Assembly: GCA_963513935.1 (NCBI GenBank)
Contig: OY740777.1
Span: 20,121,271 to 20,185,270 of the forward strand
Length of the DNA stretch: 64,000 bases
Origin: Aphrophora alni
Taxonomy: Eukaryota > Arthropoda > Insecta > Hemiptera > Aphrophoridae
Direction: 5' to 3'
The position numbers and the translations under genes are program-made. Of this stretch, positions 9,771-53,219 are shown piece after piece (within the stretch, counting starts at the first letter, position 1; each line of letters starts with the position of its first letter). A model generated the notes under the pieces. That model saw nothing but the letters and a program-made list of their open reading frames with translations, searched no databases and was not told the DNA's origin.

Positions 9771-9939
9771 ACAAATTATTGTTAAGACCTCCTGAAAAAT
9801 TAATTATTGTAATTTTAAAATAGCCTCCATCTTGAAATTTACAAAATGATTTTTCTGGTTAAGGAACATGACCAAGCATTCGTAAAGCCAATCTTAGGTA
9901 CTAATTTATTTAAGGAATAGTTTAGGGTATATAAATAAA

Positions 9940-11279: not shown

Positions 11280-12970
11280 GTACAAAATTAAAGCACTAAC
11301 TTTCTCACACAAGTCCAAACACATTTCCCCTAACTTTCTCACAAAAGTGCAAATACATTACCTTAACTTTGTCACACAAAGTTCAAAAGGAACCCACAAG
11401 TGCAAAAAAAATTCCCTATTTTTTTCACACAAGTACAAAACAATCCCCTAACTTTCTCACAAAAGTGCAAATACATTACCTTAACTTTGTCACACAAAGT
11501 TCAAAAGGAACCCACAAGTGCAAAAAAAATTCCCTATTTTTTTCACACAAGTACAAAACAATCCCCTAACTTTCTCACAAAAGTGCAAATACATTACCTT
11601 AACTTTGTCACACAAAGTTCAAAAGGAACCCACAAGTGCAAAAAAAATCCCTATTTTTTTCACACAAGTACAGCACAATCCCCTAACTTTCTCACAAAAG
11701 TGCAAATACATTACCTTAACTTTGTCACACAAAGTTCAAAAGGAACCCACAAGTGCAAAAAAAATTCCCTATTTTTTTCACACAAGTACAAAACAATCCC
11801 CTAACTTTCTCACAAAAGTGCAAATACATTACCTTAACTTTGTCACACAAAGTTCAAAAGGAACCCACAAGTGCAAAAAAAATTCCCTATTTTTTTCACA
11901 CAAGTACAAAACAATCCCCTAACTTTCTCACAAAAGTGCAAATACATTACCTTAACTTTGTCACACAAAGTTCAAAAGGAACCCACAAGTGCAAAAAAAA
12001 TTCCCTATTTTTTTCACACAAGTACAAAACAATCCCCTAACTTTCTCACAAAAGTGCAAATACATTACCTTAACTTTGTCACACAAAGTTCAAAAGGAAC
12101 CCACAAGTGCAAAAAAATTCCCTATTTTTTTCACACAAGTACAAAACAATCCCCTAACTTTCTCACAAAAGTGCAAATACATTACCTTAACTTTGTCACA
12201 CAAAGTTCAAAAGGAACCCACAAGTGCAAAAAATTTCCCTATTTTTTTCACACAAGTACAAAACAATTCTCTAACTTTCTCACAAAAGTGCAAATACATT
12301 ACCTTAACTTTGTCACACAAAGTTCAAAAGGAACCCACAAGTGCAAAAAAATTCCCTATTTTTTTCACACAAGTACAAAACAATCCCCTAACTTTCTCAC
12401 AAAAGTGCAAATACATTACCTTAACTTTGTCACACAAAGTTCAAAAGAAACCCACAAGTACAAAAAATTCCCTATTTTTTTCACACAAGTACAAAACATA
12501 TCTCTAACTTTCTCACAAAAGTGCAAAACGTTTCTATAATTTACTCCAAGACGTGGAAAAACAGTTTTCTCTAAACTTTCTCACTCAAATGGAAAAATAT
12601 TCCACTAACTTTCTTACAAAAATTTCCCTAACTTTTTCATGAAGTACAAAAACGTTTTCCTATCTTTCTCTCACAAGTACAAAACATTCCTTCATTTTCT
12701 GACATGAGTAATAAACATTTCTCTTCTCGTAAAAGTGCAAAAAAACATTCCCTTCAACTTTCTCACAAAAGTGCAAAATACATTCCCTTTAACTTTCACA
12801 TAAAGGTGCAGAAACATTTCCCTGACTGTCACAAAGTGTAAAAAACTATTCTCTAACTCTCTCGCAAAACATTTCGTTATCTCTCTCACAAAAATGCAAA
12901 AACATTTCTATAACATTCTCAATTATTTCCCTAACTTTCTTTCAAAACATTCGTGAAAACGTCCATAGAC
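11280..12970. repeat. 118-bp minisatellite built from ~29-bp subrepeats
   Basis: About ten near-identical 117-118-bp units (11310-12510) contain CTAACTTTCTCACAAAAGTG, CCTTAACTTTGTCACACAAA and CCCTATTTTTTTCACACAAG. These are variants of one ~29-bp theme (TTTCTCACAAAAGTGCAAA plus a spacer). Beyond 12510 the same theme goes on in degenerate form to about 12970, which looks like the ancestral short-period array. All three plus-strand frames stay open across long stretches, because 118 is not a multiple of 3 and the unit lacks plus-strand stops. The 222-codon frame at 11871-12539 follows from this and is not evidence for a gene. Confidence 0.95.
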
Positions 12971-13960: not shown

Positions 13961-14192
13961 ATATAAATTAGTTCACATTTATATATAGTACTTATACTGT
14001 AAGTGTTTCTGTTTTTCTTTACACTTTGTAATTGCTTCCTTATTCTTTTTCTTCTTTGTCACAACACATATGGTATTCACTCACATAATATGGTATTGTT
14101 TATACTTTTGTTTTGTGGAGTTTGGTTTTTGGTTATGTTTTCCTCAACCTTTTGAGAATCTAGTGTTTTGTTTGTGTGAGTTTTGTGACATA

Positions 14193-15977
14193 ATGCCTAG
14201 AATAAAGAAATTTGGCAAGAACAAATTCAAAGGAAACCGGTATAGTGTTGGAAAAGTGGCTACTGATAATAACTCAAGTGCAGTTGACATTTTAGGTTGT
14301 GAGAGTAGGCCTAGTACTAGCCAAAGTCTACCTAAGGAAACCTCAATTTCTGAGCCTGACAATTCAGCTTCTAAATCTAAATTGATATATTTACCTAGGT
14401 GTGGTGATGACAGTGAGTACCTATCAAGTAAAAACACAAAAGGAAACTATATTATAAATTTAGAAATTTTAAACGAGATTTTACTCTCCTCGGCAAAATG
14501 TGTAGACTGTGATAGCGTTGGATTGCAAATTATTGAAATCCCTGAAAACCGCAAGGGACTTGCTGTAAATCTAGGTATAGTTTGTAATGAATGTGGTTTT
14601 GAAAACTATTTTTACAGTAGTAGAAAAACTGAAAAGAGCTTTTTTGATGTCAATTTACGCTGTGTATATGGATTCCGCTCTATAGGAAAAGGCAAGTCTG
14701 CAGCGGATACGCTGTGTGCAGTTATGGATCTTCCAAAGCCACCCAGTAGGTTTCAACTATACAATGAAATTATTCATGAAGCTACTGAGGAGATAGCTGA
14801 AGCTACAATGACTCAAGCGGCGCGTGAAGCTGTTACAGAAAATGATGGCGAGAAGGATATCGCAGGTGTATTTGATGGTACGTGGCAAAAACGCGGCCAC
14901 ACATCATTGAATGGAGTATTTTCCGTTACAAGTATGGATACTGGTAAGGTTTTAGATGCAGTTGTTCTATCAAAACATTGTTCATGTAGTAAGATGACAA
15001 AATTAAGTAAATCGCATGCGGAAAAATGTGCCAAGAACTATGAGGGATCAAGTAGAGGTATGGAGGTAGCAGCGGCAAAGGAAGTTTTCAAGCGGTCAGA
15101 ACTAAAACGGGGTGTTAGATATGTAAAATATTTAGGTGATGGTGACAGCTCTGCTTTTTCATCAGTCCAACAGTCTAAGCCTTATGGTGATAGTGTCCAA
15201 ATTACTAAGTTGGAGTGTGTTGGACACATCCAAAAAAGGATGGGGAGTCGTTTACGCAGGTTGAAAGCCAAACTGCGTGGCTCAAAATTATCTGACGACA
15301 AACCTATTTCAGGACGTGGTAGGCTTACTGATGCATTAATTGATAATATTCAAACTTATTATGGGAAAGCAATCCGAGACAACCTTGAAGATGTTGATAA
15401 AATGAGAAGGGCAGTGTGGGCGACTTACTTTCATCTGCTTTTAACAGATAACTTTCCTCGGCACGAACTTTGCCCGAAAGGTGAATTGTCATGGTGCAAA
15501 TACCAAAGATCCCTAATTTCAGGTGAGAAGTATACTCACAAACATTCAGTACCTGAACCTGTCATGTGTGAAATAAAACCTATTTTTAGGGACCTCTCGA
15601 ACATTGACTTACTACGAAAGTGCCTTCACGGGCGAACACAAAACCCCAATGAGTCATTTAATAATGTCATTTAGACAAGAATCCCCAAGAACACTTTTGT
15701 TGGGATAAAAACATTGAAAGTTGGAGTGTTAGATGCCATCATTTCATTCAACTGTGGTGCTCTGGGTAAGGTGCAAATAATTCAAAAACTGTGCGGTGAC
15801 GCTGGAGGCAACTGTGTAGTAGGCCTAAAACAAATCGACCAGAATAGGGTTTTAGATGCCAATAAAGCAGCTTTAGAATGTGCAAAGAATAAAAGAAAAC
15901 AGAAAAGAAATATTAAAAGAAAAAGAGAAGATAAGGAAGAAGAATCAACAGCTAAGTATGGTGCTGGACTATTTTAG
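14193..15977 (+). pseudogene. Mutator-like/Kolobok-type DDE transposase with one nonsense codon
   Basis: Intronless frame of 594 codons from ATG 14193 (MPRIKKFGKNKFKGNR) to TAG at 15975, interrupted only by TAG at 15672-15674 (codon 494). It resembles the arthropod proteins annotated as Mutator-like transposase domain. A zinc-ribbon-like C103/C106 and C131/C134 pair comes first. The probable catalytic acidic residues are D228 (FDGTWQKRGH), D316 or D318 (YLGDGDS) and E487 (NPNESFNNV). A C-x2-H (CVGH, 342-345) lies between the second and third, and a Lys/Arg-rich tail (about 560-580) could act as a nuclear signal. An upstream in-frame ATG at 14070 adds a hydrophobic 41-residue extension that looks like leader, so I prefer 14193. 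The stop falls where family members have Trp (TGG to TAG), seven codons after the presumed catalytic Glu. The rest is uncorrupted, so inactivation looks recent, unless the stop is read through or is a sequencing error. Confidence 0.88.
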
Positions 15978-26090: not shown

Positions 26091-26525
26091 TAGAGTTGCT
26101 TAATTTTCAACCACAAAATCTTTCATAGTCATTCTTCCCCCGGGTTGTATACAAATCTTCTTTTCCCCTCTTTTTTGCTACTTTCAACCTATACTTCGTA
26201 TTCTGGATAAGAAATAAGTTTTACAAATACTTATACGTGGTTCGACCCACATATGCATAGAATTACGACAAATATAACTGTAGTCAGATTAGTACTTGAA
26301 AGACACTGTATATTGTAATATGTAATGCAATGGTCGTGAGTTTAAGCTTTTAATGTTTAGGCCTACCCCCAATTTTGAACACTGTTTTTTCGGTCATTAA
26401 TTTTCACAATTCGGTAGAGGCGATATTGAGAAATTAAGTTTTTAACAGCCCCATAACCAATTTTTTTACCGATAATTTAGGAACCAGTATATTAGGAGAG
26501 ATGGCAAGCAATAAGTTTTGTTTGG
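26091..26525. other. Non-coding DNA between relic and Foldback element
   Basis: No gene. Bases about 26400-26530 (GAGAAATTAAGTTTTTAACA, TTTTTTTACCGATAATTTAG) resemble 17455-17540. A GTGGTTCGACCCACA at about 26239 looks like a tRNA T-arm, but no acceptor or anticodon arms fit around it. Confidence 0.4.
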
Positions 26526-26534
26526 GTCCTTAGA
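26526..26534. other. 9-bp target-site duplication, left (GTCCTTAGA)
   Basis: Exact match to 31997-32005 on the other side of the Foldback-like element. Nine bp is the usual MULE target-duplication length. Confidence 0.88.
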
Positions 26535-27345
26535 AAGTCTGTGAAGTTGGCCCAACCATGGTAGCCCAACCGCTTCAAAATAGTGCCAATCGTTAGTTTT
26601 GCATTAGTTTCGGTTAGTTCTCCTAAATTAAACGTTAGTTTCGCCTTGGTAGTCGTCTAAAACGGATATGTTAATTATGGTTGGGCCAACTTCACACGAG
26701 CCCAACCAAAATTAAAAATTGAATTTTTTATTAGGTACGTGAATCAGTTCCTTTACGTTAGTTTCTAATAGTTCCGACAAAGAAATCGTTAGCTTCGCAT
26801 TCCAAACGAGTTGTATATGAGACAAAAGGGTTGGGCTAACTTCACGCTTTTTGAGAATTGCACGGAAACAAATTAAAACCATGCCAATCGTTAGTGTTGC
26901 GTTAGTTTCGGTTAGTTCTCCTAAATTAAACGTTAGTTTCGCCTTGGTAGTCGTCTAAAACGGATATTAATTATGGTTGGGCCAACTTCACACGAGCCCA
27001 ACCAAAATTAAATAGGATTTTTTTATTACGTGAATCAGTTCCTTTACGTTAGTTTCGAATAGTTCTGACAATGAAATCGTTAGTTTCGCATTCCTAACGA
27101 GTTTCATATGAGACAAAAGGGTTGGGCTAACTTCACGCTTTTTGAGAATTGCACGGAAACAAATTAAAACCATGCCAATCGTTAGTTTTGGGTTAGTTTC
27201 GGTTAGTTTTGTTAAAATAAACGTTAGTTTCACATTCCTGATGAGTTTTATATGAGACAAAATGTTTGGGCTAACTTCACGCTTTTTGAGAATTGCACGG
27301 AAACAAATTAAAACCATGCCAAATGTTAGTTTTACGTTATAACTA
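26535..27345 (+). repeat. Left tandem-array inverted repeat of the Foldback-like element
   Basis: About 2.6 units of ~296 bp (TTGGGCCAACTTCAC at 26681 and 26977). The outermost part has a 14-bp local duplication (ATGGTAGCCCAACC) absent from the right end. Units contain several GTTAGTTTCG-like subrepeats and a GGTTGGGC...GCCCAACC self-complementary block. The 109-codon minus frame at 26988-27317 is repeat translation only. Confidence 0.9.
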
Positions 27346-28027
27346 TCTCACACAACTATAGATCTTAAAACTATTGTTTAATGTAATAATAATATTGCAC
27401 TAACTTTTACATACATACATAGTAAAACTATTAATAGATTCCAAAATATTACTTTAACATTGCACACTTATACATTGTAAAACTAATATTTAGTGGGAAA
27501 ATATTTTACTAACTTTCTCACACACATATACATAGTAAAACTATTATTCCGTCCAAAAATATTGGTGGAAATCCCAGTTAAAATCAAAGTAAATTAAATA
27601 ACTACAAAAGGAATTGCCTAAGTGTGACACAGTGTTCGGACCCGATTCTAATGTGTTGAAGACAATAAACTGCCTAATGTAAATCTAAACTGGTAAAAGG
27701 AAATAGAACAGTAAGCAACTGTGCACTATTATTTTTTTGTCTTCCGAGATAATAAGAGAGGAAGTGTTGACAAATCCATCATTCTTATCATGATTTGTTA
27801 TTGGAAGTGTATTTAATACTGGCATCCATTACGGGGGAAATGCTTTGTTAGTAAACAGGAGTTAAATAATAAATCAATCTGTCATACCTACGTTTTAAAT
27901 TTTACGACTACTCCTATCTTCGGAGCATTACGTGGAGATTCGATGGAAGTATTATCCGTTGATCATCAGTTTTTTATCACAGTGTTTTAATATTTTTCGA
28001 AGAAGGTAGACGACTAAAACTACAAGA
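27346..28027. other. Foldback interior, 5' of the transposase
   Basis: Bases 27350-27560 hold a degenerate ~60-bp repeat (CATAGTAAAACTATTA-like). A splice-donor-like GAG|GTAAGT lies at 28029-28037, just where the open frame begins, so the real start may lie in an upstream exon. No ATG start was identified. Confidence 0.4.
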
Positions 28028-28035
28028 GGAGGTAA

Positions 28036-29524
28036 GTGATATCAAGTTTGTCTTATATTCCTGTAGAATTGAATACATCCACTATACGAAAGTCTTATTG
28101 CAATAATTTTCCGATACAATGTAATGATAGCAGAAACGTTCCTCATACCAAAAAACACCCACTGAAAGAAAAACTGAGAGAGTTTGTTGGAGGAACCGAA
28201 TTAAAAAATGTCTCAGCCACAATTTACAGACGGCACAAAGCTTCCTCTTTGATGGATCTAGGTGATCTGGAGCCACCAAATCTCTATGAAGCGTTTGTTC
28301 TTCGTAAAGCAAAACAAGAACAAAGAGATAATTTATTAAAAATAGTTCATGGTGCTCACCCAATCACCAGCCTCAGTATTATGAAACACTCTCAACCATA
28401 CGCTGGAAGTATTCATGATATTTCATTTGACAAACTTATCGTGCATTATTTCACACCAAGCCAGTTAGTTGTTCTTGTATAAAGTTTACAGCAAAGAAAT
28501 GTACATAAAACTATCACTAGATGCAACAGGAAGCTTAGAACAAAAACTTCAGAGACTGCACAATTTGTCAGGAAATATGTTCTTGTACGAACTTGTGCTC
28601 CACACTGGCAAGGGACAACTACCGATGCTGCAAATGTTATCTGAAAAACACGATGCTAACGAAATATTATATTGGCTTAACGAGTGGGAGAGGCAGGGAG
28701 CCATATGTCCAAAAGAAGTTGTCGTCGACAACTCAGTTGCTCTAAAAAGTGCCCTAGCAAAATCATTTGGCAGATCAGGTGATCTAAATCACTACCTGCA
28801 ACGTTTTGTGTTGCAGTCGGAGAAAGCGATACTTTGCCACCATGCTTCATAAGATTAGACGTTGCACATTTTTTACAAAACGCAAATAAGTGGAAAGTTT
28901 GGGACGACAAAGAAAGACGTAGATTAAAGGATTTTTATCTCAGATGTCTTGGAGTGCAGATCAAAGCTACTTCTCTTAATGAGTTTAAATTTCATCTTAA
29001 GCATGCCCTGTGCATGGCACTTTCGTCTCAAGAAGGTGAATCCCCTTCTCCAATCGAGGATAGTCTGAACATACTATCAAGCAAAATTAGAGGAATTTGA
29101 ATTACATTGAAAATTGGCGTGGTTTGGCCAAATGAGGGCAGCGGAAAAGAGCAAAATACCAAACATCTCTTCCGCATTTTGAAGCAGCAGTAAAAGGGAA
29201 TAGATTAAAACAGCCAAAGAACAGACTCTTGGTAATGGCAACGTGAGTATTTTCATTAAAACCAGTGATGGGAGAAAAGTTTTAATAAAAAATACATGTC
29301 CTTTTGACGCAACTTGTCAAGTTCTAGCAGAAATGTACATACAGAGTCAAGAATGTAGGTTGTATTTTGACACATCTAAAAACGGTTTTGTTTCTGCAGC
29401 AAAAATGTTGGCGCTAGATGGTGCTTGCAAAAGTGTCTACAAGATGCGAACCGAATTACTGGCCGGTATTTTGGATCCCGTTTCAACGCTGCAGTGCCCC
29501 ACAACAAAAACAATCATATATTAA
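28036..29524 (+). pseudogene. NOF-like MULE transposase, frameshifted and internally deleted
   Basis: Four open segments in succession: 28036-28482, 28469-28852, 28834-29100 and 29243-29524. The first has the basic LKEKLREFV and GDLEPPNLYEAFVLRKAKQE region. The second has SLDATGS (first catalytic Asp, codon at 28520) and VVDNSVALKSA (second Asp, codon at 28727), 69 residues apart. The third has LPPCFIRLDVAHFLQ, carrying the C/H pair expected between the second Asp and the Glu. The fourth has KNTCPFDATCQVLAEMY, a C-terminal block I associate with NOF-type proteins. Two frameshifts (about 28470 and 28840) and a deletion between about 29100 and 29240 would remove the third catalytic residue. The first two frames begin at GTG or TTG and so have no eukaryotic start. 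Inactive, but little diverged otherwise. Confidence 0.85.
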
Positions 29525-30788
29525 AAATATAAATGTTTAAATATCACTTGAACAAAAAATGTTTCACGGTGTTTTAAAATAAATGAATTTTTACTCATCT
29601 TCAGTCCCAACACATTACACATTTTAGGTAAAAAGTAAGCAAATACATTCTTGCTGTACCTCATGTAGTTGTTAAGTTTGTTAAGTTATCTTAGTGTTGT
29701 TTTTGTGTTTTTACTACAATTATTTGTATTTTAACGTTGCTATTGTTATTCTGGGTTTGTTGTTAAGTTTAACTTTGTTACTGTGTTGAATATTATACGT
29801 TATTTCAGTAAGTTTGTATTTTAAAGACTTACTATTGTAATTATTGCTGTAGCTAATGTAGTTGTTAGTTTTACCCACCTTAAGACTATACTGCATTTAT
29901 TTCCTGTTGCTGCATTTAGTTTGTATTACGTGTTGTTGTAATTCTTGAAAAATCTCATTAAGTTGTCAAGTTTTACCCACTTCTGATGTTTACTATTTAT
30001 ATTTTTCAGTTAGTTTCTTATCTATGGTTTTTTATTTACATTACAAATGTAACAACACTATGATTTTTTATCCTCAATAATAATACTCTTTCTTTTGTAA
30101 TAATTTTAGGGCGTTGTGTTTTTTAAATAAGTTTTAAATGTGCTAAACAAATCTAGTGTTCAAAAAACTCATTGCGTTGTTGGGTTAATCCCAAATACTA
30201 TGTAGGCTATTTATGTAACAATAATGTATGGAATCATTTTTGTAAACAGTAACAGTACCTATTATGAGTTAAAATTTTCAATAAAATGTAAATAGGTAGG
30301 CCTACGTGATGTGTTTATTTGTGTGTTTACAAACAGCTTTCATTACTATACCAATGCTTCATTGAGAGTAAAATATCAATAATGTTTTTGTTATTTTAAG
30401 ACTGTCTAAATAATTATAAACCGTGTTGTTATTAGTCACGGTTGTAATTTAGTAAGTTGTAATATTAGTAGTTGTAATTTTCACGCTATTTAAATTTGTT
30501 TGCACGTGTTTATTTCAGTTTTCTAATGATAATTACATTAGCCTATTCAATCTGTTTATTATTATTATTATTTTACAAACACCTTGTACTACAATAACTG
30601 TAAATAAATTATCTATACACCTATCTATTTTGTACCTAAATCAGTATCGAGGACAATTGTTACATAGGGGGGCACTGCGCCTTATCCTTCGTAATGTTAA
30701 CTCATGTTTTTTTTTTCTCAGAAATGGCTGAAGATAACTTTTTGGAAATATTTTTATTATTCAAAGTAGGTCTTTGGACATAACTGTA

Positions 30789-30847
<59 letters not shown>

Positions 30848-31029
30848 GTTTAGATTTATGGTAAAATTTAAAAAATATTATTTTTTTATCAAGAAACTTT
30901 TTTTTTTATATATATACCTATTAGGTTGACAACAAATATTATTATTACCACGAAAAGAGTTCTTACCCTGAACTATTAAAAAATATCATTAAGATATCTT
31001 ATTCCTTTCCTGAGAAAAAGGTACATAAG
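29525..31029. other. Foldback interior, 3' of the transposase
   Basis: Very AT-rich, with recurring TTGTTAAGTTT and GTAGTTGTTA-like words (29660-29980) suggesting a highly degenerate short-period repeat. No gene. An (AT)n tract lies at 30790-30845. Confidence 0.5.
30790..30845. repeat. (AT)n microsatellite
   Basis: About 55 bp of AT dinucleotides inside the Foldback-like element. Confidence 0.95.
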
Positions 31030-31996
31030 CTTAAAAAAAACTAACTTTCGGAAAGCGAAACTAACGTTTATTTTAACAAAACTAACTTAAAGTAACCCAA
31101 AACTAACGATTGGCATAGTTTTAATTTGTTTCCGTGCAATTCTCAAAAAGCGTGAAGTTAGCCCAACCCTTTTGTCTCACATAAAACTCGTTAGGAATGC
31201 GAAACTAACGATTTCTCTGTCAGAACTATTAGAAACTAACGTAAAGGAACTGATTCACGTAATAAAAAATTCAATTTTTAATTTTGGTTGGGCTCGTGTG
31301 AAGTTGGCCCAACCATAATTAACATCCGTTTTAGACGACTACCAAGGCGAAACTAACGTTTAATTTAGGAGAACTAATACAAAACTAATGATTGGCATTG
31401 TTTTAATTTGTTTCCGTGCAATTCTCAAAAAGCGTGAATTAGCCCAACCCATATAAAACTTGTTAGGAATGCGAAACTAACGATTTCTCTGTCAGAACTA
31501 TTCGAAACTAACGTAAAGGAACTGATTCACGTAATAAAACATTCATTTTTTAATTTTGGTTGGGCTCGCGTGAAGTTGGCCCAACCATAATTAACATCCG
31601 TTTTAGACGACTACCAAGGCGAAACTAACGTTTAATTTAGGAGAACTAACCGAAACTAACGCAAAAACTAACGATTGGCATGGTTTTAATTTATTTCCTT
31701 GCAATTCTCTAAAAGCGTGAAGTTAGCCCAAAATTTTTGTCTCATATAAAACTCGTTAGGAATGCGAAACTAACGATTTCTTTGTCAGAACTATTCGAAA
31801 CTAACGTAAAGGAATTGATTCATGTAATAAAAAATTCAATTGTTAATTTTGTTTGGGCTCGTGTGAAGTTGGCCCAACCATAATTAACATCCGTTTTAGA
31901 CGACTACCAAGGCGAAACTAACGTTTAATTTAGGAGAACTAACCGAAACTAACGATTGACACTATTTTGAAGCGGTTGGGCCAACTTCACAGACAT
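31030..31996 (-). repeat. Right tandem-array inverted repeat of the Foldback-like element
   Basis: About 3.3 units, with AAGTTGGCCCAACCATAATT at about 31301, 31573 and 31866 (periods 272 and 293 bp), inverted relative to the left array. Sequence conservation between the two arms is high by eye. Confidence 0.9.
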
Positions 31997-32005
31997 GTCC
32001 TTAGA
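31997..32005. other. 9-bp target-site duplication, right (GTCCTTAGA)
   Basis: Pairs with 26526-26534. Confidence 0.88.
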
Positions 32006-32039
32006 GGCGACATTTGAGCTCACTTGAATGATTACAATC

Positions 32040-32225
32040 TCGAGGGAACCTAGCCGGATCTACAACTCAATCCTTGACTTGCACGTAGAGGTTAGGTACA
32101 TCTTTCTTATCCGGTCTCTCTTGACCATGTCTTATTCTTTACAGATCTTAACACTATTACAATATTCTTACTTTTTTGTAAGGTAATGATGACCAAGAAG
32201 TTTTATCTTTAAACAAAACAAAAAA
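32040..32225 (+). repeat. Dispersed repeat family A copy
   Basis: CGAGGGAACCTAGCCGGATC start, GGTCTCTCTTGACCATGTC, then GTAAGGTAATGATGACCAAG in family A order. Compare 53769-53975, which shares the CGAGGGAACCTAG left end. Confidence 0.75.
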
Positions 32226-32782
32226 AGAAAAACAAACATTGAGCAAAATGTATTCATAAAATCGTGGTGTTTTTGAGAAAATCGTAATTTTGTGTTGTTT
32301 TTTATGACAACTACGTACGGTACGTCAAATCTTGAGTTCTGTCATCCTTCGTTTAAAAGTTGACCTTCGTTATATGACAATTCATGGACTCCGGAAACCA
32401 AAAAGTGTATTTCGACGTGACGTCGCCCGTCGTTGTCTGTACAGTACGTAACCACGATAGTCGCCACAAAAAATTAAAATAGTAACGTTAAATCTGTGCA
32501 TGCCGGACTAACAGTGTGCTCATATAGAATAACTATAAATAAATTCACAAAAATCGAATTAAAATGGCGTAAATTAAAATCGAATTAAAGAGTAATTTAG
32601 AACCATCATCTCCCAAGAACAAACTCGTTACGATATCCAGCACGGCAGAGTCGACATACGCGTACCGGGTGAAGGTTTCTTCGCTTATGGAATAGCTTCG
32701 AATCCTGTCAGGGCCGAGACACATCTACGAGCTCCGTAAGGACCCTTAGCCGACGTCAAGAAAATACTGATATACACAATCA
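32226..32782. other. Non-coding DNA with a GC-rich island
   Basis: Bases about 32595-32750 are clearly GC-richer than the surroundings and contain an open plus-strand stretch (YDIQHGRVDIRVPGEGFF...). I do not recognise it and see no good splice pair, apart from a donor-like CC|GTAAGG at 32735. An unrecognised exon or TE fragment is possible. Confidence 0.3.
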
Positions 32783-33326: not shown

Positions 33327-36300
33327 TGTATATACAAGTCAAAACCCACTGACTGATCAAGAAATCTCTAGATCCAAGAAGCCTAGAGCTATGAATTTTT
33401 TAACATGGATTCGGATATGTCTGTAGACGCGTACTAAGAAAGGGTTTTCAAAATGTTCCACTTCAAGGATGTTTTCTACCCCTAAAGCATATCTCTGGAT
33501 CCAAGAAGCCTAGCGCTATGAATTTTTTAACATGGATTCGGATATGTCTGTAGACGCGTACTAAGAAAGAGTTTTCAAAATGTTCCACTTCAAGGATGTT
33601 TTCTACCCCTAAAGCATATCTCTAGATCCAAGAAGCCTAGAGCTATGAATTTTTTAACATGGATTCGGATATGTCTGTAGACGCGTACTAAGAAAGGGTT
33701 TTCAAAATGTTCCACTTCAAGGATGTTTTCTACCCCTAAAGCATATCTCTGGATCCAAGAAGCCTAGCGCTATGAATTTTTTAACATGGATTCGGATATG
33801 TCTGTAGACGCGTACTAAGAAAGAGTTTTCAAAATGTTCCACTTCAAGGATGTTTTCTACCCCTAAAGCATATCTCTGGATCCAAGAAGCCTAGAGCTAT
33901 GAATTTTTTAACATGGATTCGGATATGTCTGTAGACGCGTACTAAGAAAGGGTTTTCAAAATGTTCCACTTCAAGGATGTTTTCTACCCCTAAAGCATAT
34001 CTCTGGATCCAAGAAGCCTAGCGCTATGAATTTTTTTAACATGGATTCGGATAGGTCTGTAGACGCGTACTAAGAAAGAGTTTTCAAAATGTTCCACTTC
34101 AAGGATGTTTTCTACCCCTAAAGCATATCTCTGGATCCAAGAAGCCTAGCGCTATGAATTTTTTTAACATGGATTCGGATAGGTCTGTAGACGCGTACTA
34201 AGAAAGAGTTTTCAAAATGTTCCACTTCAAGGGTGTTTTCTACTCCTAAAGCATATCTCTGGATCCAAGAAGCCTAGAGCTATAAATTTTTTAACATGGA
34301 TTCGGATAGGTCTGTAGACGCGTACTAAGAAAGGGTTTTCAAAATGTTCCACTTCAAGGATGTTTTCTACCCCTAAAGCATATCTCTGGATCCAAGAAGC
34401 CTAGCGCTATGAATTTTTTTAACATGGATTCGGATATGTCTGTAGACGCGTACTAAGAAAGAGTTTTCAAAATGTTCCACTTCAAGGATGTTTTCTACCC
34501 CTAAAGCATATCTCTGGATCCAAGAAGCCTAGCGCTATGAATTTTTTTAACATGGATTCGGATAGGTCTGTAGACGCGTACTAAGAAAGAGTTTTCAAAA
34601 TGTTCCACTTCAAGGATGTTTTCTACCCCTAAAGCATATCTCTGGATCCAAGAAGCCTAGCGCTATGAATTTTTTAACATGGATTCGGATATGTCTGTAG
34701 ACGCGTACTAAGAAAGGGTTTTCAAAATGTTCCACTTCAAGGATGTTTTCTACCCCTAAAGCATATCTCTGGATCCAAGAAGCCTAGCGCTATGAATTTT
34801 TTTAACATGGATTCGGATAGGTCTGTAGACGCGTACTAAGAAAGAGTTTTCAAAATGTTCCACTTCAAGGATGTTTTCTACCCCTAAAGCATATCTCTGG
34901 ATCCAAGAAGCCTAGCGCTATGAATTTTTTAACATGGATTCGGATATGTCTGTAGACGCGTACTAAGAAAGGGTTTTCAAAATGTTCCACTTCAAGGATG
35001 TTTTCTACCCCTAAAGCATATCTCTGGATCCAAGAAGCCTAGCGCTATGAATTTTTTTAACATGGATTCGGATAGGTCTGTAGACGCGTACTAAGAAAGG
35101 GTTTTCAAAATGTTCCACTTCAAGGATGTTTTCTACCCCTAAAGCATATCTCTGGATCCAAGAAGCCTAGCGCTATGAATTTTTTTAACATGGATTCGGA
35201 TATGTCTGTAGACGCGTACTAAGAAAGAGTTTTCAAAATGTTCCACTTCAAGGATGTTTTCTACCCCTAAAGCATATCTCTGGATCCAAGAAGCCTAGCG
35301 CTATGAATTTTTTTAACATGGATTCGGATAGGTCTGTAGACGCGTACTAAGAAAGGGTTTTCAAAATGTTCCACTTCAAGGATGTTTTCTACCCCTAAAG
35401 CATATCTCTGGATCCAAGAAGCCTAGCGCTATGAATTTTTTTAACATGGATTCGGATATGTCTGTAGACGCGTACTAAGAAAGAGTTTTCAAAATGTTCC
35501 ACTTCAAGGATGTTTTCTACCCCTAAAGCATATCTCTGGATCCAAGAAGCCTAGCGCTATGAATTTTTTTAACATGGATTCGGATAGGTCTGTAGACGCG
35601 TACTAAGAAAGAGTTTTCAAAATGTTCCACTTCAAGGATGTTTTCTACCCCTAAAGCATATCTCTGGATCCAAGAAGCCTAGCGCTATGAATTTTTTTAA
35701 CATGGATTCGGATATGTCTGTAGACGCGTACTAAGAAAGAGTTTTCAAAATGTTCCACTTCAAGGATGTTTTCTACCCCTAAAGCATATCTCTGGATCCA
35801 AGAAGCCTAGAGCTATGAATTTTTTAACATGGATTCGGATAGGTCTGTAGACGCGTACTAAGAAAGAGTTTTCAAAATGTTCCACTTCAAGGGTGTTTTC
35901 TACCCCTAAAGCATATCTCTGGATCCAAGAAGCCTAGCGCTATGAATTTTTTTAACATGGATTCGGATAGGTCTGTAGACGCGTACTAAGAAAGAGTTTT
36001 CAAAATGTTCCACTTCAAGGATGTTTTCTACCCCTAAAGCATATCTCTGGATCCAAGAAGCCTAGCGCTATGAATTTTTTTAACATGGATTCGGATATGT
36101 CTGTAGACGCGTACTAAGAAAGAGTTTTCAAAATGTTCCACTTCAAGGATGTTTTCTACCCCTAAAGCATATCTCTGGATCCAAGAAGCCTAGAGCTATG
36201 AATTTTTTAACATGGATTCGGATAGGTCTGTAGACGCGTACTAAGAAAGGGTTTTCAAAATGTTCCACTTCAAGGATGTTTTCTACCCCTAAAGCATATC

Positions 36301-37102
36301 TCTGGATCCAAGAAGCCTAGCGCTATGAATTTTTTTAACATGGATTCGGATAGGTCTGTAGACGCGTACTAAGAAAGAGTTTTCAAAATGTTCCACTTCA
36401 AGGATGTTTTCTACCCCTAAAGCATATCTCTGGATCCAAGAAGCCTAGCGCTATGAATTTTTTTAACATGGATTCGGATAGGTCTGTAGACGCGTACTAA
36501 GAAAGAGTTTTCAAAATGTTCCACTTCAAGGATGTTTTCTACCCCTAAAGCATATCTCTGGATCCAAGAAGCCTAGCGCTATGAATTTTTTTAACATGGA
36601 TTCGGATAGGTCTGTAGACGCGTACTAAGAAAGGGTTTTCAAAATGTTCCACTTCAAGGGTGTTTTCTACTCCTAAAGCATATCTCTGGATCCAAGAAGC
36701 CTAGAGCTATAAATTTTTTAACATGGTTTGGGGTAAGTCAATAGACGCGTACTAAGAAAGGGTTTAGAAATGTTCCACTCCAAGGGTGTTTTTACCCCTA
36801 AAGCATATTTCTGAATCCAAGAAGACTAGAGCTATGAATATTTAAACATGGTTTGGGGTAGGTCTCTAGACGCGTACTAAGAAAGGGTTTTGAAAATGTT
36901 CCACTCCAAGGGTGTTTTTTACCCCTAAAACATATACCATATCTTTGTTATTTATGGAGCGATTTTGATCAAAATTGGTGTGTTGCTATATTTGGGCATA
37001 ATTCATTTCCATAATACCACCATTAATGTTGTGTTAAAAAAATATAATTTCTTTATAAAACTATCTCAACTATCCCCAGGTGAAACTGGGGCTATCAGCT
37101 AT
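33327..37102 (+). mobile_element. Helitron inflated by an internal satellite array
   Basis: The left end (TGTATATACAAGTC, then AAAACCCACTGACTGATCA) and the right end (CCCCAGGTGAAACTGGGG hairpin, then CTATCAGCTAT|T) match the 334-bp Helitron at 4141-4474 end to end. Here the terminal CTAG has become CTAT. Between them the ~127-bp internal segment, single at 4180-4310, is repeated about 28 times. The element is ~3.78 kb and without coding capacity. Confidence 0.85.
33364..36930 (+). repeat. 127-128-bp satellite array, ~28 units
   Basis: Units start ATCTCTGGATCCAAGAAGCC and end ACCCCTAAAGCAT. Unit starts at 33364, 33491, 33618 and 33745 show a 127-bp period; one extra T in a T-run gives 128 bp. 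Variants alternate (CTAGAGCTATG/CTAGCGCTATG, AAAGGGTTTT/AAAGAGTTTT, GGATATGTCTG/GGATAGGTCTG), and at the left end they alternate strictly, giving a 254-bp higher-order period. The last two units (from about 36690) are more like the single unit at 4180-4310, so the ancestral form survives at the edge. Confidence 0.95.
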
Positions 37103-38945: not shown

Positions 38946-39051
38946 TACCAATAAATAAACATTGAGCTTGACTTGTGAATAAATATTAGATAAAAAAAAA
39001 TTAAAAAACTCGAACACAAGATCTCACCAAAATTACGTTTACTTAATCAAA

Positions 39052-39082
39052 CGCGTTTCAACGACAAAGTCGTCACCCTCAG
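39052..39082 (-). other. Hammerhead-like hairpin motif
   Basis: The minus strand reads CTGAGGGT, then stem GACGAC / GTCGTT with TTT loop (six pairs, one G-U), then GAAACGCG. The CTGANGA box is CTGAGGG here, with one core base off. Confidence 0.4.
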
Positions 39083-39129
39083 TGATATATGAGCTACAAT
39101 AAATAAACTATATTGTAGCTAATGTATGA

Positions 39130-39160
39130 CTGAGGATGGCAACTTCGTCGTTGAAACGCG
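39130..39160 (+). other. Hammerhead-like hairpin motif
   Basis: CTGAGGAT, stem GGCAAC / GTCGTT (imperfect) with TTC loop, then GAAACGCG. The CTGANGA and GAAAC boxes are both intact. Confidence 0.4.
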
Positions 39161-39240
39161 TTTGATTAAGTAAACGTAATTTTGGTGAGATCTTGTGTTC
39201 GAATTTTTTTTTTCTTCTATCTAATGTTACCAATAATCAA

Positions 39241-41779: not shown

Positions 41780-44700
41780 CTCCCAAGGGGATCAGCCCTC
41801 GGAGTGCCGTCGGGATCACCCTTCAGACAACGAACGGGGAAGTCCGTGCTGCCGGGATCAGCCTAGAGACAACGAACGGGGAAGTCCGTGCTGCCGGATC
41901 AGCTGACAGACCACTCGGAGGGTGGAACGTTCATCCTGGAGGGATCAGACTTCAGACAACGAACGGGGAAGTCCGTGCTGCCGGATCAGATGAGAGACCA
42001 CTCGGAGGGTGGAACGTTCATCCTGGAGGGATCAGACTTCAGACAACGAACGGGGAAGTCCGTGCTGCCGGGATCAGCCTAGAGACAACGAACGGGGAAG
42101 TCCGTGCTGCCGGATCAGCTGACAGACCACTCGGAGGGTGGAACGTTCATCCTGGAGGGATCAGACTTCAGACAACGAACGGGGAAGTCCGTGCTGCCGG
42201 ATCAGATGAGAGACCACTCGGAGGGTGGAACGTTCATCCTGGAGGGATCAGACTTCAGACAACGAACGGGGAAGTCCGTGCTGCCGGGATCAGCTGAGAG
42301 ACCACTCGGAGGGTGGAACGTTCATCCTGGAGGGATCAGACTTCAGACAACGAACGGGGAAGTCCGTGATGCCGGATCAGCTGACAGACCACTCGGAGGG
42401 TGGAACGTTCATCCTGGAGGGATCACCTTTCAAACAACGATCGGGGAAGTCCGTGCTGCCGGATCAGCTGACAGACCACTCGGAGGGTGGAACGTTCATC
42501 CTGGAGGGATCAGACTTCAGACAACGAACGGGGAAGTCCGTGCTGCCGGATCAGATGAGAGACCACTCGGAGGGTGGAACGTTCATCCTGGAGGGATCAG
42601 ACTTCAGACAACGAACGGGGAAGTCCGTGCTGCCGGGATCAGCCTAGAGACAACGAACGGGGAAGTCCGTGCTGCCGGATCAGCTGACAGACCACTCGGA
42701 GGGTGGAACGTTCATCCTGGAGGGATCAGACTTCAGACAACGAACGGGGAAGTCCGTGCTGCCGGATCAGATGAGAGACCACTCGGAGGGTGGAACGTTC
42801 ATCCTGGAGGGATCAGACTTCAGACAACGAACGGGGAAGTCCGTGCTGCCGGGATCAGCTGAGAGACCACTCGGAGGGTGGAACGTTCATCCTGGAGGGA
42901 TCAGACTTCAGACAACGAACGGGGAAGTCCGTGATGCCGGATCAGCTGACAGACCACTCGGAGGGTGGAACGTTCATCCTGGAGGGATCACCTTTCAAAC
43001 AACGAACGGGGAAGTCCGTGCTGCCGGATCAGCTGACAGACCACTCGGAGGGTGGAACGTTCATCATGGAGGGATCAGACTTCAAACAACGAACGGGGAA
43101 GTCCGTGCTGCCGGATCAGCTGACAGACCACTCGGAGGGTGGAACGTTCATCCTGGAGGGATCAGACTTCAGACAACGAACGGGGAAGTCCGTGATGCCG
43201 GATCAGCTGACAGACCACTCGGAGGGTGGAACGTTCATCCTGGAGGGATCAGCCTAGAGACAACGAACGGGGAAGTCCGTGCTGCCGGGATCAGCTGACA
43301 GACCACTCGGAGGGTGGAACGTTCATCCTGGAGGGATCATCTTTCAGACAACGAACGGGGAAGTCCGTGCTGCCGGGATCAGCTGAGAGACCACTCGGAG
43401 GGTGGAACGTTCATCCTGGAGGGATCACCTTTCAGACAACGAACGGGGAAGTCCGTGCTGCCGGGATCAGCTGACAGACCACTCGGAGGGTGGAACGTTC
43501 ATCCTGGAGGGATCATCTTTCAGACAACGAACGGGGAAGTCCGTGCTGCCGGGATCAGCTGAGAGACCACTCGGAGGGTGGAACGTTCATCCTGGAGGGA
43601 TCACCTTTCAGACAACGAACGGGGAAGTCCGTGCTGCCGGGATCAGCTGAGAGACCACTCGGAGGGTGGAACGTTCATCCTGGAGGGATCAAACTTCAGA
43701 CAACGAACGGGGAAGTCCGTGCTGCCGGATCAGCTGACAGACCACTCGGAGGGTGGAACGTTCATCCTGGAGGGATCAGCCTAGAGACAACGAACGGGGA
43801 AGTCCGTGCTGCCGGGATCAGCTGACAGACCACTCGGAGGGTGGAACGTTCATCCTGGAGGGATCATCTTTCAGACAACGAACGGGGAAGTCCGTGCTGC
43901 CGGGATCAGCTGAGAGACCACTCGGAGGGTGGAACGTTCATCCTGGAGGGATCACCTTTCAGACAACGAACGGGGAAGTCCGTGCTGCCGGGATCAGCTG
44001 ACAGACCACTCGGAGGGTGGAACGTTCATCCTGGAGGGATCATCTTTCAGACAACGAACGGGGAAGTCCGTGCTGCCGGGATCAGCTGAGAGACCACTCG
44101 GAGGGTGGAACGTTCATCCTGGAGGGATCACCTTTCAGACAACGAACGGGGAAGTCCGTGCTGCCGGGATCAGCTGAGAGACCACTCGGAGGGTGGAACG
44201 TTCATCCTGGAGGGATCAAACTTCAGACAACGAACGGGGAAGTCCGTGCTGCCGGATCAGCTGACAGACCACTCGGAGGGTGGAACGTTCATCCTGGAGG
44301 GATCAGCCTTCAGACAACGAACGGGGAAGTCCGTGCTGCCGGGATCAGCTGACAGACCACTCGGAGGGTGGAACGTTCATCCTGGAGGGATCAGCCTAGA
44401 GACAACGAACGGGGAAGTCCGTGCTGCCGGATCAGCTGACAGACCACTCGGAGGGTGGAACGTTCATCCTGGAGGGATCAGCCTTCAGACAACGAACGGG
44501 GAAGTCCGTGCTGCCGGGATCAGCTGACAGACCACTCGGAGGGTGGAACGTTCATCCTGGAGGGATCATCTTTCAGACAACGAACGGGGAAGTCCGTGCT
44601 GCCGGATCAGCTGACAGACCACTCGGAGGGTGGAACGTTCATCCTGGAGGGATCAGCCTTCAGACAACGAACGGGGAAGTCCGTGCTGCCGGGATCAGCT

Positions 44701-45415
44701 GACAGACCACTCGGAGGGTGGAACGTTCATCCTGGAGGGATCAGACTTCAGACAACGAACGGGAAAGTCCGTGCTGCCGGGATCAGCTGAGAGACCACTC
44801 GGAGGGTGGAACGTTCATCCTGGAGGGATCAGCCTAGAGACAACGAACGGGGAAGTCCGTGCTGCCGGATCAGCTGACAGACCACTCGGAGGGTGGAACG
44901 TTCATCCTGGAGGGATCAGCCTAGAGACAACGAACGGGGAAGTCCGTGCTGCCGGATCAGCTGACAGACCACTCGGAGGGTGGAACGTTCATCCTGGAGG
45001 GATCAGCCTTCAGACAACGAACGGGGAAGTCCGTGCTGCCGGATCAGATGACAGACCACTCGGAGGGTGGAACGTTCATCCTGGAGGGATCAGCCTAGAG
45101 ACAACGAACGGGGAAGTCCGTGCTGCCGGATCAGCTGACAGACCACTCGGAGGGTGGAACGTTCATCCTGGAGGGATCAGCCTTCAGACAACGAACGGGG
45201 AAGTCCGTGCTGCCGGATCAGCTGACAGACCACTCGGAGGGTGGAACGTTCATCCTGGAGGGATCAGCCTAGAGACAACGAACGGGGAAGTCCGTGCTGC
45301 CGGATCAGCTGACAGACCACTCGTAGGGTGGAACGTTCATCCTGGAGGGATCAGCCTTCAGACAACGAACGGGGAAGTCCGTGCTGCCGGGATCAGCTGA
45401 CAGACCACGGAGGTA
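41780..45415. repeat. GC-rich 87/88-bp minisatellite, ~42 units
   Basis: Units read ATCAGCTGACAGACCACTCG, GAGGGTGGAACGTTCATCCT, GGAGGGATCA, then a variable CAGACTTCAGA / CCTTTCAGA / GCCTAGAGA block, then CAACGAACGGGGAAGTCCGT. By my count one unit is about 59% GC, far above its flanks. Lengths of 87 and 88 bp differ by GG versus GGG in CCGGATC/CCGGGATC, and some units are truncated to ~43 bp. Higher-order blocks are visible: 43226-43752 recurs at 43753-44279 (527 bp), and 42104 recurs at 42669 (565 bp). Plus-strand frames of up to 256 codons reflect the low stop content. There is no flanking exon or domain, so I do not call a gene. Confidence 0.95.
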
Positions 45416-50189: not shown

Positions 50190-50350
50190 TTACGATGTTG
50201 GTGAAACCTGTGTAACAACTTTTTTAAACAAGCTTATCTTGCAAATATTAGACGTTACGTTTATTAGAAGATCTGCTTGTATGATGAAGCTGGTTGACTA
50301 CCATGATGATTCCAACAACTTGTCTTTATAATGCGATAGTGGTTTGGTTA
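50190..50350 (-). repeat. Dispersed repeat family C fragment
   Basis: TTAGAAGATCTGCTTGTATG, ATGAAGCTGGTTGACTACCA and CCAACAACTTGTC match family C at 32860-32945. Confidence 0.55.
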
Positions 50351-51725
50351 GGTTGGGTTCGGTTTGGTTAGGTTAGGTTTGGCGTACTAATACATTTGAG
50401 CTAGCACTCGTGTTTTGTGTCCTGATTGGCGCTCGTTTAATAGTCTTCAGTCTGAAGTTCACCACTAGAGCGGCTTACAATTGCTATATTTTCAAAATAA
50501 ATTCAATACTGTATAAACAAATGAAATTAAATGATAACCAAAAAAGGAAAGGTTAGGTTGGGTTGGGTTTGGTTGGGTTTGGTTAGGTTAGGTTTGGCGT
50601 ACTAATACATTTGAGCTAGCACTCGTGTTTTGTGTCCTGATTGGCGCTCGTTTAATAGTCTTCAGTCTGAAGTTCACCACTAGAGCGGCTTACAATTGCT
50701 ATATTTTCAAAATAAATTCAATAAAAACAAATGAAATTAAATGAAAACAAACAAAGGAAAGGTTAGGTTGGGTTTGGTTAGGTTAGGTTTGGCGTACTAA
50801 TACATTTGAGCTAGCACTAGTGTTTTGTGTCCTGATTGGTACTCATTTAAGTCTTCAGTCTGAAGTTCACCACTAGAGCGGCTTACAATTGCTATATTTT
50901 CAAAATAAATTCAATAAAAACAAATGAAATTAAATGAAAACAAACAAAGGAAAGGTTAGGTTGGGTTGGGTTTGGTTAGGTTAGGTTTGGCGTACCAATA
51001 CATTTGAGCTAGCACTAGTGTTTTGTGTCCTGATTGGTACTCATTTAAGTCTTCAGTCTGAAGTTCACCACTAGAGCGGCTTACAATTGCTATATTTTCA
51101 AAATAAATTCAATAAAAACAAATGAAATTAAATGAAAATCAAAAAAGGAAAGGTTGGGTTAGGTTTGGTTAGGTTAGGTTTGGCGTACTAATACATTTGA
51201 GCTAGCACTCGTGTTTTGTGTCCTGATTGGCACTCATTTAAGTCTTGAGTCTGAAATTCACCACCAGAGCGGCTTACAATTGCTATGTTTACAAAATAAA
51301 TTCAATAAAAACAAATTAAATGAAAACAAAAAAAGGAAAGGTTGGGTTGGGTTTGGTTAGGTTAGGTTTGGCGTACTAATACATTTGAGCTAGCACTCGA
51401 GTTTTGTGTCCTGATTGACACTCATTTAAGTCTTCAGTCTGAAGTTCACCACCAGAGCAGGTTACAATTAATTGCTATGTTTACAAAATAAATTCAATAA
51501 AAACAAATTAAATGAAAACAAAAAAAGGAAAGGTTGGGTTTGGTTAGGTTAGGTTAGGTTTGGCGTACTAATACATTTAAGCTAGCACTCGTGTTTTGTG
51601 TCCTGATTGGCACTCATTTAAGTTTTCAGTCTGAAGTTCACCACCAGAGCGGCTTACAATTGCTATATTTTCAAAATAAATTCAATAAAAACAAATGAAA
51701 TTAAATGAAAACCAAAAAAAAAAGG
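50336..51725. repeat. ~195-bp tandem array with TTAGG-like linkers
   Basis: Seven units, with GGCGTACTAATACATTTGAG at 50381, 50596, 50791, 50989, 51182, 51370 and 51562 (periods 188-215 bp). Each unit has an AGTCTTCAGTCTGAAGTTCA self-complementary block, then AAAATAAATTCAATAAAAAC, then a GGTTAGGTTGGGTTTGGTTA linker of variable length. Length differences sit mainly in that linker. Confidence 0.93.
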
Positions 51726-52623: not shown

Positions 52624-53219
52624 GGTTAGGTTAGGTTAGGTTTGGTTAAGGTTGTTAGGTTAGGCTAGATAAGGTTAGGTTAGAATAGGTTAGGTTCGGT
52701 TAGAATAGGTTAAGCTAGGTTAGGTTAGGCAAGGTTAGGTTAGAATACGTTAGGTTAGGTTAGGCTAGGTTAGGAAAGGTTAGGTTAGGTTAGGTCAGGT
52801 TAGGTTAGGTTAGAATAGGTTAGGTTAGGTTAGAATAGGTTAAGCTAGGTTAGGTTAGGCAAGATTAGGTTAGAATACGTTAGGTTAGGTTAGGTCAGGT
52901 TAGGTTAGGCTAGATAAGGTTAGGTTAGAATAGGTTAGGTTAGGTTAGAATAGGTTAAGCTAGGTTAGGTTAGGCAAGATTAGGTTAGAATACGTTAGGT
53001 TAGGTTAGGCTAGGTTAGGCTAGGCTAGGTTAGGCTAGGTTAGGTTAGATTAGGTTAGGTTAGGCTAGGCTAGGCTAGGTTAGGTCAGGTTAGGCTAGGT
53101 TAGGCAAGGCTAGGTTAGGCAAGGTTAGGTTAGGTTAGGTTAGAATAGGTTAGGTTAGGTTAGATTAGATTAGGTTAGGCTAGGCTAGGCTAGGCTAGGT
53201 TAGGTTAGGTTAGGTTAGA
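52624..53219. repeat. Interstitial TTAGG-like (insect telomere motif) tract
   Basis: Nearly 600 bp made almost wholly of GGTTA pentamers, with variants GGCTA, AGAATA, GGCAA and GATTA. Runs such as TTAGGTTAGGTTAGG are exact insect telomere repeats. Longer blocks recur (TAGAATAGGTTAAGCTAGG three times), so block duplication has taken place. Such tracts occur internally in many insect genomes and do not by themselves show a chromosome end. Confidence 0.9.

Follow-up and report, generated by a model that had tools for sequence, protein, structure and literature searches.

A decayed Foldback-type transposon, probably a NOF-branch Mutator-like element, with its end motif iterated in long tandem-repeat arms

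Results

The 64-kb stretch of DNA analysed here (the window) carries at 26535-31996 what is very probably a Foldback-type DNA transposon from the NOF branch of the Mutator-like elements (MULEs), decayed and non-autonomous in this copy. We assign this reading a probability of roughly 0.88 and take the host to be an animal, probably an arthropod. The element is flanked by two exact copies of the 9-bp sequence GTCCTTAGA, at 26526..26534 and 31997..32005, identified as a target site duplication (TSD) by 9-mer matching and a chance control, and no third site was found on the + strand of the window. The terminal inverted repeat tips, at 26535..26557 (+) and 31974..31996 (-), agreed at 22 of 23 bases when compared in inverted orientation, with a single mismatch. 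A 14-bp stretch lies directly after the left tip, and the right end has no such stretch. For the control, all identical 9-mer pairs 300-10,000 bp apart in the whole window (n=106,161) were scored by the mismatches across the 23 inverted bases immediately inside each pair. Two pairs had six mismatches or fewer: the TSD pair of the element (one mismatch) and a TA-rich 9-mer at 9928/13960 (five mismatches). The exact duplication and near-identical ends of the original prediction were thus confirmed, and the TSD length lies within the 8-11 bp that a passage of PMC6446971 gives for MULEs. From this one insertion we infer that the element was mobile.

Examination of the arms revealed the long inverted arrays of direct repeats that define the Foldback architecture, as had been predicted. 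In the left arm (26535..27339, +), the tip is joined by two units, 298 and 291 bp long, and a partial unit of 144 bp; in the right arm (31040..31996, -) it is joined by three units, 281, 283 and 282 bp long, and a partial unit of 76 bp. Unit lengths were measured from an anchor common to all units. Their lengths of about 0.8 kb and 0.96 kb agree with the 0.8-1.0 kb expected of opposite-facing arms; the predicted unit of about 295 bp is slightly high for the right arm. TRF reported 2.2 copies of a 291-bp period at 26584-27231 and 3.1 copies of a 293-bp period at 31055-31953, and the best inverted pair between the arms spanned 242 nt at 92% identity. With a unit of 281-298 bp and a half unit of about 147 bp, the arms do not have the short period of Drosophila FB. 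The five full units were 94-96% identical in all ten pairwise comparisons (gaps left out) and did not cluster by arm. Identity was lower for the partial unit at the inner end of each arm: these two were 74-88% identical to the full units and 89% identical to each other over 74 bp. A structured RNA search of 26300-32300 gave no Rfam match at the gathering score.

It could be argued that a local satellite was duplicated in inverted orientation, or misassembled, with a fortuitous 9-mer at its edges, since tandem arrays abound in the window (TRF gave 87 rows, counting those that overlap). We consider this extremely improbable: the arms matched nothing in the window outside the element at E<=1e-3, inverted ends with at most one mismatch in 23 occurred in one of the 106,161 control pairs, the sole other pair within six mismatches is TA-rich, and a transposase gene sits between the arms. 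The same absence of arm matches elsewhere in the 64 kb means that the suggestion of transposon ends seeding satellites was not borne out here.

The tip of the element is itself iterated in the arms. Allowing up to four mismatches, the tip 18-mer was found 12 times inside the element, in nearly every half unit of both arms, and not once in the remaining 58,538 bp of the window. The left-arm copies (26540..27281) begin at 26540 (+, the tip) and at 26679, 26829, 26975, 27120 and 27264 (all -), spaced by about 147 bp; those of the right arm (31151..31991) begin at 31151, 31297, 31569, 31716 and 31862 (all +) and at 31974 (-, the tip). The count of 12 leaves out an additional right-arm copy near 31433 that has lost one base. 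The core of the tip motif, GTTGGSCCAAC, is near-palindromic. The sequence CGTTAGTTT occurs 23 times within the element and nowhere else in the window, recurring without a regular short period. In IMG/VR the 18-mer had one exact match, on one contig, which we take as chance.

Between the arms lie the remains of a transposase gene. The four open segments of the original prediction are present (148, 127, 105 and 106 codons, stop to stop) and do not form an intact gene. Five pieces could be traced on the + strand. Piece 1 (28036..28479) precedes the catalytic core, with homology detectable from about 28114. Piece 2 (28481..28792), in a different frame from piece 1, holds both predicted boxes: SLDATGS, with the first Asp, begins at 28514, and VVVDNS supplies the second Asp, the box VVVDNSVALKSA having its Asp at 28727. 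Piece 3 (28795..29097) carries an RLDVAH motif, and its match to the relative P0033 ends at 29037. Piece 4 (29100..29242) has an internal stop and an ENWRGLAK motif, and the interval between it and piece 3 lacks about 200 residues of P0033. Piece 5 (29246..29521) holds the start of a USP-like domain, with a Cys box, NTCPFDATCQVL, at 29291-29326, and then a stop; the remainder of that domain was not detected after the stop. For ~237 residues at the start of P0033, ~200 in its middle and ~190 at its end, no match could be detected in the window gene. Both Asp residues are present, and the Glu region has gone with the middle loss, the residue lost there being presumably the catalytic Glu.

We considered a complete, possibly active element and rejected it. 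The gene is broken by frame changes and stops, internally deleted and truncated, so that the predicted "complete" element is a non-autonomous relic.

The pieces are followed by an AT-rich interior (29525..31039, 25% G+C) in which no homology to the transposase family was detected. That the gene is a fragment adjoining such DNA would suit a composite Foldback element, its arms derived from another transposon family and the NOF-like gene carried inside as an unrelated insert; in Drosophila, NOF sits inside some FB elements only. We regard such an origin as improbable, because TSD length, long arms and transposase are all consistent with one superfamily and no second ends were found around the gene among the 25 longest of 58 inverted pairs.

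The family of the transposase was then assigned from its relatives. The window gene had 21 homologs at E<=1e-3 (best 3.4e-79), among them P0044, named at its source "NOF-FB transposable element, partial [Clarias magur]" (42% identity, E 2.4e-57), and P0062, named "Similar to NOF" (28% identity, E 8.9e-27). Clarias magur is a catfish, and the organism name of the second record, cut at "Cot", probably denotes the wasp Cotesia. These names are those of annotators and the records are not Drosophila NOF itself; the homology to them supports the predicted NOF-like gene and places it, as far as sequence comparison goes, in the NOF branch. The same two records take away the novelty claimed for a distinct lineage outside flies. 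In A3, an alignment of 20 relatives picked for length that includes P0035 and P0033, the closest long relatives of the window transposase, D357 and D426 were conserved in 20 of 20 sequences and E645 in 19 of 20, suggesting that these are the catalytic residues.

Structural models of relatives were used to examine the fold. The best PDB match of the P0004 model was the ISCth4 transposase (E 9.6e-5), an IS256-family enzyme, and for the P0022 model, too, ISCth4 ranked first among transposases (E 2.0e-4). TM-scores to ISCth4 were low, at 0.13-0.17 when normalised by query length and 0.31-0.35 by target, and the P element and Transib transposases matched the P0004 model nearly as well (6.8e-4 and 7.9e-4). 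The models thus suggest the IS256-related DDE enzyme with RNase H-like fold expected of MULEs; the matches are weak, yet in line with the Mutator reading. The Pfam MULE family (PF10551) matched none of four window pieces and two of 20 relatives, weakly (best E 0.027), which leaves fold, TSD length and naming as the basis for MULE membership. No solved structure matched piece 2 by sequence at E<=1. A profile search of IMG/VR returned eight pattern matches and no confirmed relatives; records of the same or a near genome were possibly excluded from it.

Domain content bears on whether the element is instead a Rehavkus element proper (a Repbase group of arthropods and annelids) and not NOF, although both may be one family. 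The inverted termini of Rehavkus-1_TC contain tandem units of 164 bp (PMC10218199 and PMC6446971, in part), and 9-bp TSDs and a PHD finger are described for Rehavkus (PMC6446971, in part). A Znf_SCAND3 finger was found by Pfam in three of eight homologs scanned (E 9.1e-7, 4e-9 and 1.4e-10), including P0011 of the beetle Phaedon cochleariae, which aligns with the window transposase (36% identity, E 3.8e-44). However, this finger is not among the 13 Pfam families listed at E<=1 for the 20 A3 relatives, P0035 and P0033 included, and the window copy lacks the region expected to hold it. On this evidence we judge Rehavkus proper rather unlikely. FLYWCH, the N-terminal zinc finger of Phantom transposases, is also absent from the 13 families, and the window copy is without the N-terminus.

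In longer NOF relatives, the C-terminal end was observed to be a USP-like deubiquitinase domain. The listed VIA-align matches of the P0022 model were filled by USP-fold chains and are therefore uninformative on the DDE part; Pfam UCH had no match in P0022, which speaks against the USP reading. Also against it, a strict text pattern applied to 85 homologs, many of them fragments, recovered the Cys box in 29 homologs and the His box in 20; only 16 had both, and all of these fall in the length-picked A3. Outside A3, the five homologs of at least 960 residues comprised P0024, P0032 and P0062 (Cys box without His box), P0040 (His box only) and P0029 (neither). A narrow literature search found no earlier report of a USP domain in NOF/Foldback transposases, which is weak evidence of absence.

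Discussion

For the NOF-type Foldback element proposed here, a DDE transposase supplied by another copy would bind the tip motif and its iterations in the arms, excise the element and insert it with a 9-bp stagger, which would explain the exact TSD. The arms may have grown from the end sequence itself through unequal exchange, and exchange between left and right arms would keep the full units similar. The gene may have lost its frame and catalytic Glu after insertion, or the element may have been mobilised in trans already broken.

A tentative extension, which we hold to be possible though not favoured, takes enzyme and arms together. NOF-type Foldback transposases would be two-headed, joining an IS256-like DDE enzyme to a USP-family isopeptidase with Cys/His/Asp and a zinc finger retained, and the arms would be arrays of additional transposase sites, derived by copying the tip in the opposite orientation. 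If so, the isopeptidase would protect the transposase or transpososome from ubiquitin- or SUMO-dependent removal, and the tip could pair with any internal copy as ends, releasing short nested elements. Of greater interest would be the USP-like domain of the longer relatives, since it would link a transposase to the ubiquitin system. The element also provides a clean example of end iteration, and Foldback arm growth becomes testable because the 18-base tip recurs in nearly every half unit and the full units are equally alike between and within arms.

Among known systems, FB/NOF of Drosophila melanogaster shares the Foldback arms, the NOF-type protein and a 9-bp TSD, but its arm repeats are of short period. 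Long arm units are already published for Rehavkus-1_TC and Tetris (PMC10218199, PMC6446971 and PMC4079207, in part). Rehavkus-1_TC of Tribolium castaneum resembles the element in its tandem units and the 9-bp TSD of its group, and differs in its 9.5-kb size, unit length and PHD finger; its unit also occurs as the satellite TCsat23 (passages of PMC10218199 and PMC6446971). Passages of PMC6446971 place a minisatellite in Rehavkus before the 3' TIR only, give TIRs of 26-400 bp and use the group as an outgroup to MULEs. Tetris of Drosophila virilis has a Foldback structure with tandem arm units of about 220 bp, in which part of the flanking end domain is repeated (37 bp, ~80%), an 8-10-bp TSD and a Mutator assignment by its authors; in the passages concerned, no transposase was found in Tetris, and its arm units had already been shown to seed satellites, expanding into arrays of which none was seen in this window (PMC4079207). 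Tm1 of root-knot nematodes shares Foldback-like composite TIRs, a 9-bp TSD, a Mutator-type transposase and mostly non-autonomous copies, but has a ~14-bp arm motif and a Phantom-type transposase with a FLYWCH domain (PMC3169594, in part). The term MULE-NOF occurs in nine papers, including genome papers on a wasp, fishes and Hydra, and the element described here is a good example of such transposons, not a new class.

The boundaries of the element

The sequence GTCCTTAGA was found on both flanks (26526–26534 and 31997–32005) of the decayed Foldback-type NOF transposon copy that occupies 26535–31996, and this 9-mer occurs nowhere else on the + strand of the 64-kb window. When the terminal 23 bases of the element were compared in inverted orientation, one mismatch was observed. 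As a control for the ends, we compared the 23 inverted inner bases of pairs of identical 9-mers lying 300–10,000 bp apart (n=106,161). A single further pair, which was TA-rich and had 5 mismatches, reached ≤6/23 mismatches. The left tip contains 14 additional bases that the right tip does not have. Outside the element, an inverted repeat was located at 38996–39216, with arms of 106 bp, 90% complementarity and a spacer of 9 bp.

Arm units and copies of the tip

The left arm (26535–27339, + strand) consists of units of 298 and 291 bp followed by a partial unit of 144 bp, and the right arm (31040–31996, − strand) consists of units of 281, 283 and 282 bp with a partial unit of 76 bp. The arm unit is itself a degenerate dimer, its halves measuring about 147 bp each. 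With gaps left out, the five full units were 94–96% identical in all ten pairs, within as well as between arms. The innermost partial units were 74–88% identical to the full units and 89% identical to each other over 74 bp. From this pattern of identity within and between arms, we read the inner partial units as old remnants and the full units as younger copies that were exchanged between the arms, with other histories possible.

When up to 4 mismatches were allowed, the tip 18-mer, TGTGAAGTTGGCCCAACC, had 12 copies within the element, comprising the two tips and ten internal copies, and none in the remaining 58,538 bp of the window. A further copy with a 1-base deletion lies near 31433, outside the count of 12. 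Every internal copy (10/10) is oriented opposite to the tip of its own arm; as a tandem array forces its internal tip copies into equal orientation, this amounts to one observation and not ten. Since the core of the tip motif, GTTGGSCCAAC, is a near-palindrome, the orientation of the copies may be of little weight for putative binding to it.

Several other tandem arrays are present in the window. The array at 33364–36935, which begins 1.4 kb past the element, is homogeneous (128-bp unit, 28 copies, 97% matches), and no similarity between it and the arms of the element was detected at E≤1e-3. An array at 11301–12527 has 10.4 copies of a 118-bp unit with 97% matches and subunits of about 32 bp, and 87-bp arrays with open frames of 160–261 codons extend over 41854–45408, the longest having about 32 copies. 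About 119 copies of GGTTA (77% matches), the arthropod-type telomere repeat, were found at 52624–53218, near a 193-bp array at 50346–51720 that has GGTTA stretches within its consensus.

The transposase gene and its homologs

The gene of the element was recovered as five pieces in different frames between 28036 and 29521, one of which has an internal stop. The five pieces were read through, with X at the joints, and used as a query against 4,105 candidates. At E≤1e-3 this yielded 21 homologs, the best of them at 3.4e-79. A profile built from 13 of these 21, for which scoring was confined to the 7,991 candidates with the most words in common, matched 70 proteins. Among the profile matches were two proteins with NOF in their source names, P0044 (NOF-FB transposable element, partial; Clarias magur) and P0062 (Similar to NOF), and direct comparison with the window gave 42% identity for the former (E 2.4e-57) and 28% for the latter (E 8.9e-27). 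A hypothetical protein of the leafhopper Homalodisca vitripennis, P0015, was 36% identical to the window (E 2.0e-38). Taken together with the GGTTA array, this match points to a probable arthropod host.

Parts of the gene have been lost. Using tblastn at E≤1e-3, we found that the window matched residues 238–354, 354–465, 467–543 and 748–888 of P0033, a homolog of 1077 residues; at the same threshold, residues 1–237, about 544–747 and 889–1077 had no match in the window. The motif SSAxVExxF falls inside the middle loss. In an aligned set of 20 relatives chosen for length, E645 of this motif (numbering of the homolog P0022) was kept in 19, and D357 and D426 were present in all 20, and by inference these three residues constitute the catalytic triad. 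On that reading the copy in the window is unable to encode a working transposase, as the E of the triad lies in the missing middle part.

Some 11 kb upstream of the element is a second, different Mutator-type gene (13989–15674, + strand), a 561-codon open frame whose match to PF20700, the Mutator-like transposase model of Pfam, runs over the model's entire length (E 4.7e-74).

Placement of the element and comparison with known Foldback transposons

The Pfam MULE model matched 2 of the 20 relatives (best E 0.027) and none of four pieces of the window. AlphaFold models were used of two homologs, P0004 (mean pLDDT 62.6) and P0022 (mean pLDDT 79.2). The top transposase match of both was ISCth4, a member of the IS256 family, with E values of 9.6e-5 and 2.0e-4, respectively, and low TM-scores; for the P0004 model, the P element and Transib were nearly as good. 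PMC3169594 refers to an IS256/MULE family of transposons. The length of the target-site duplication, the arms, the naming and the fold all agree with a NOF/Foldback MULE, and placement among NOF, Rehavkus and Phantom is by names and published features.

The original prediction had proposed a distinct lineage of Foldback elements outside flies. This is not new as such, since both long-unit and non-fly elements have been published. A Foldback-like Mutator element is described from nematodes (PMC3169594), and the authors of Tetris list foldback elements in rye, Arabidopsis, sea urchin and Chironomus (PMC4079207). Tetris is a Foldback element with arm units of about 220 bp and is the source of a satellite (PMC4079207), and Rehavkus-1_TC of Tribolium has a 164-bp arm unit in common with the satellite TCsat23 (PMC10218199). 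Compared with these units of about 220 and 164 bp, that of the present element measures about 290 bp, and on present evidence it is a length variant.
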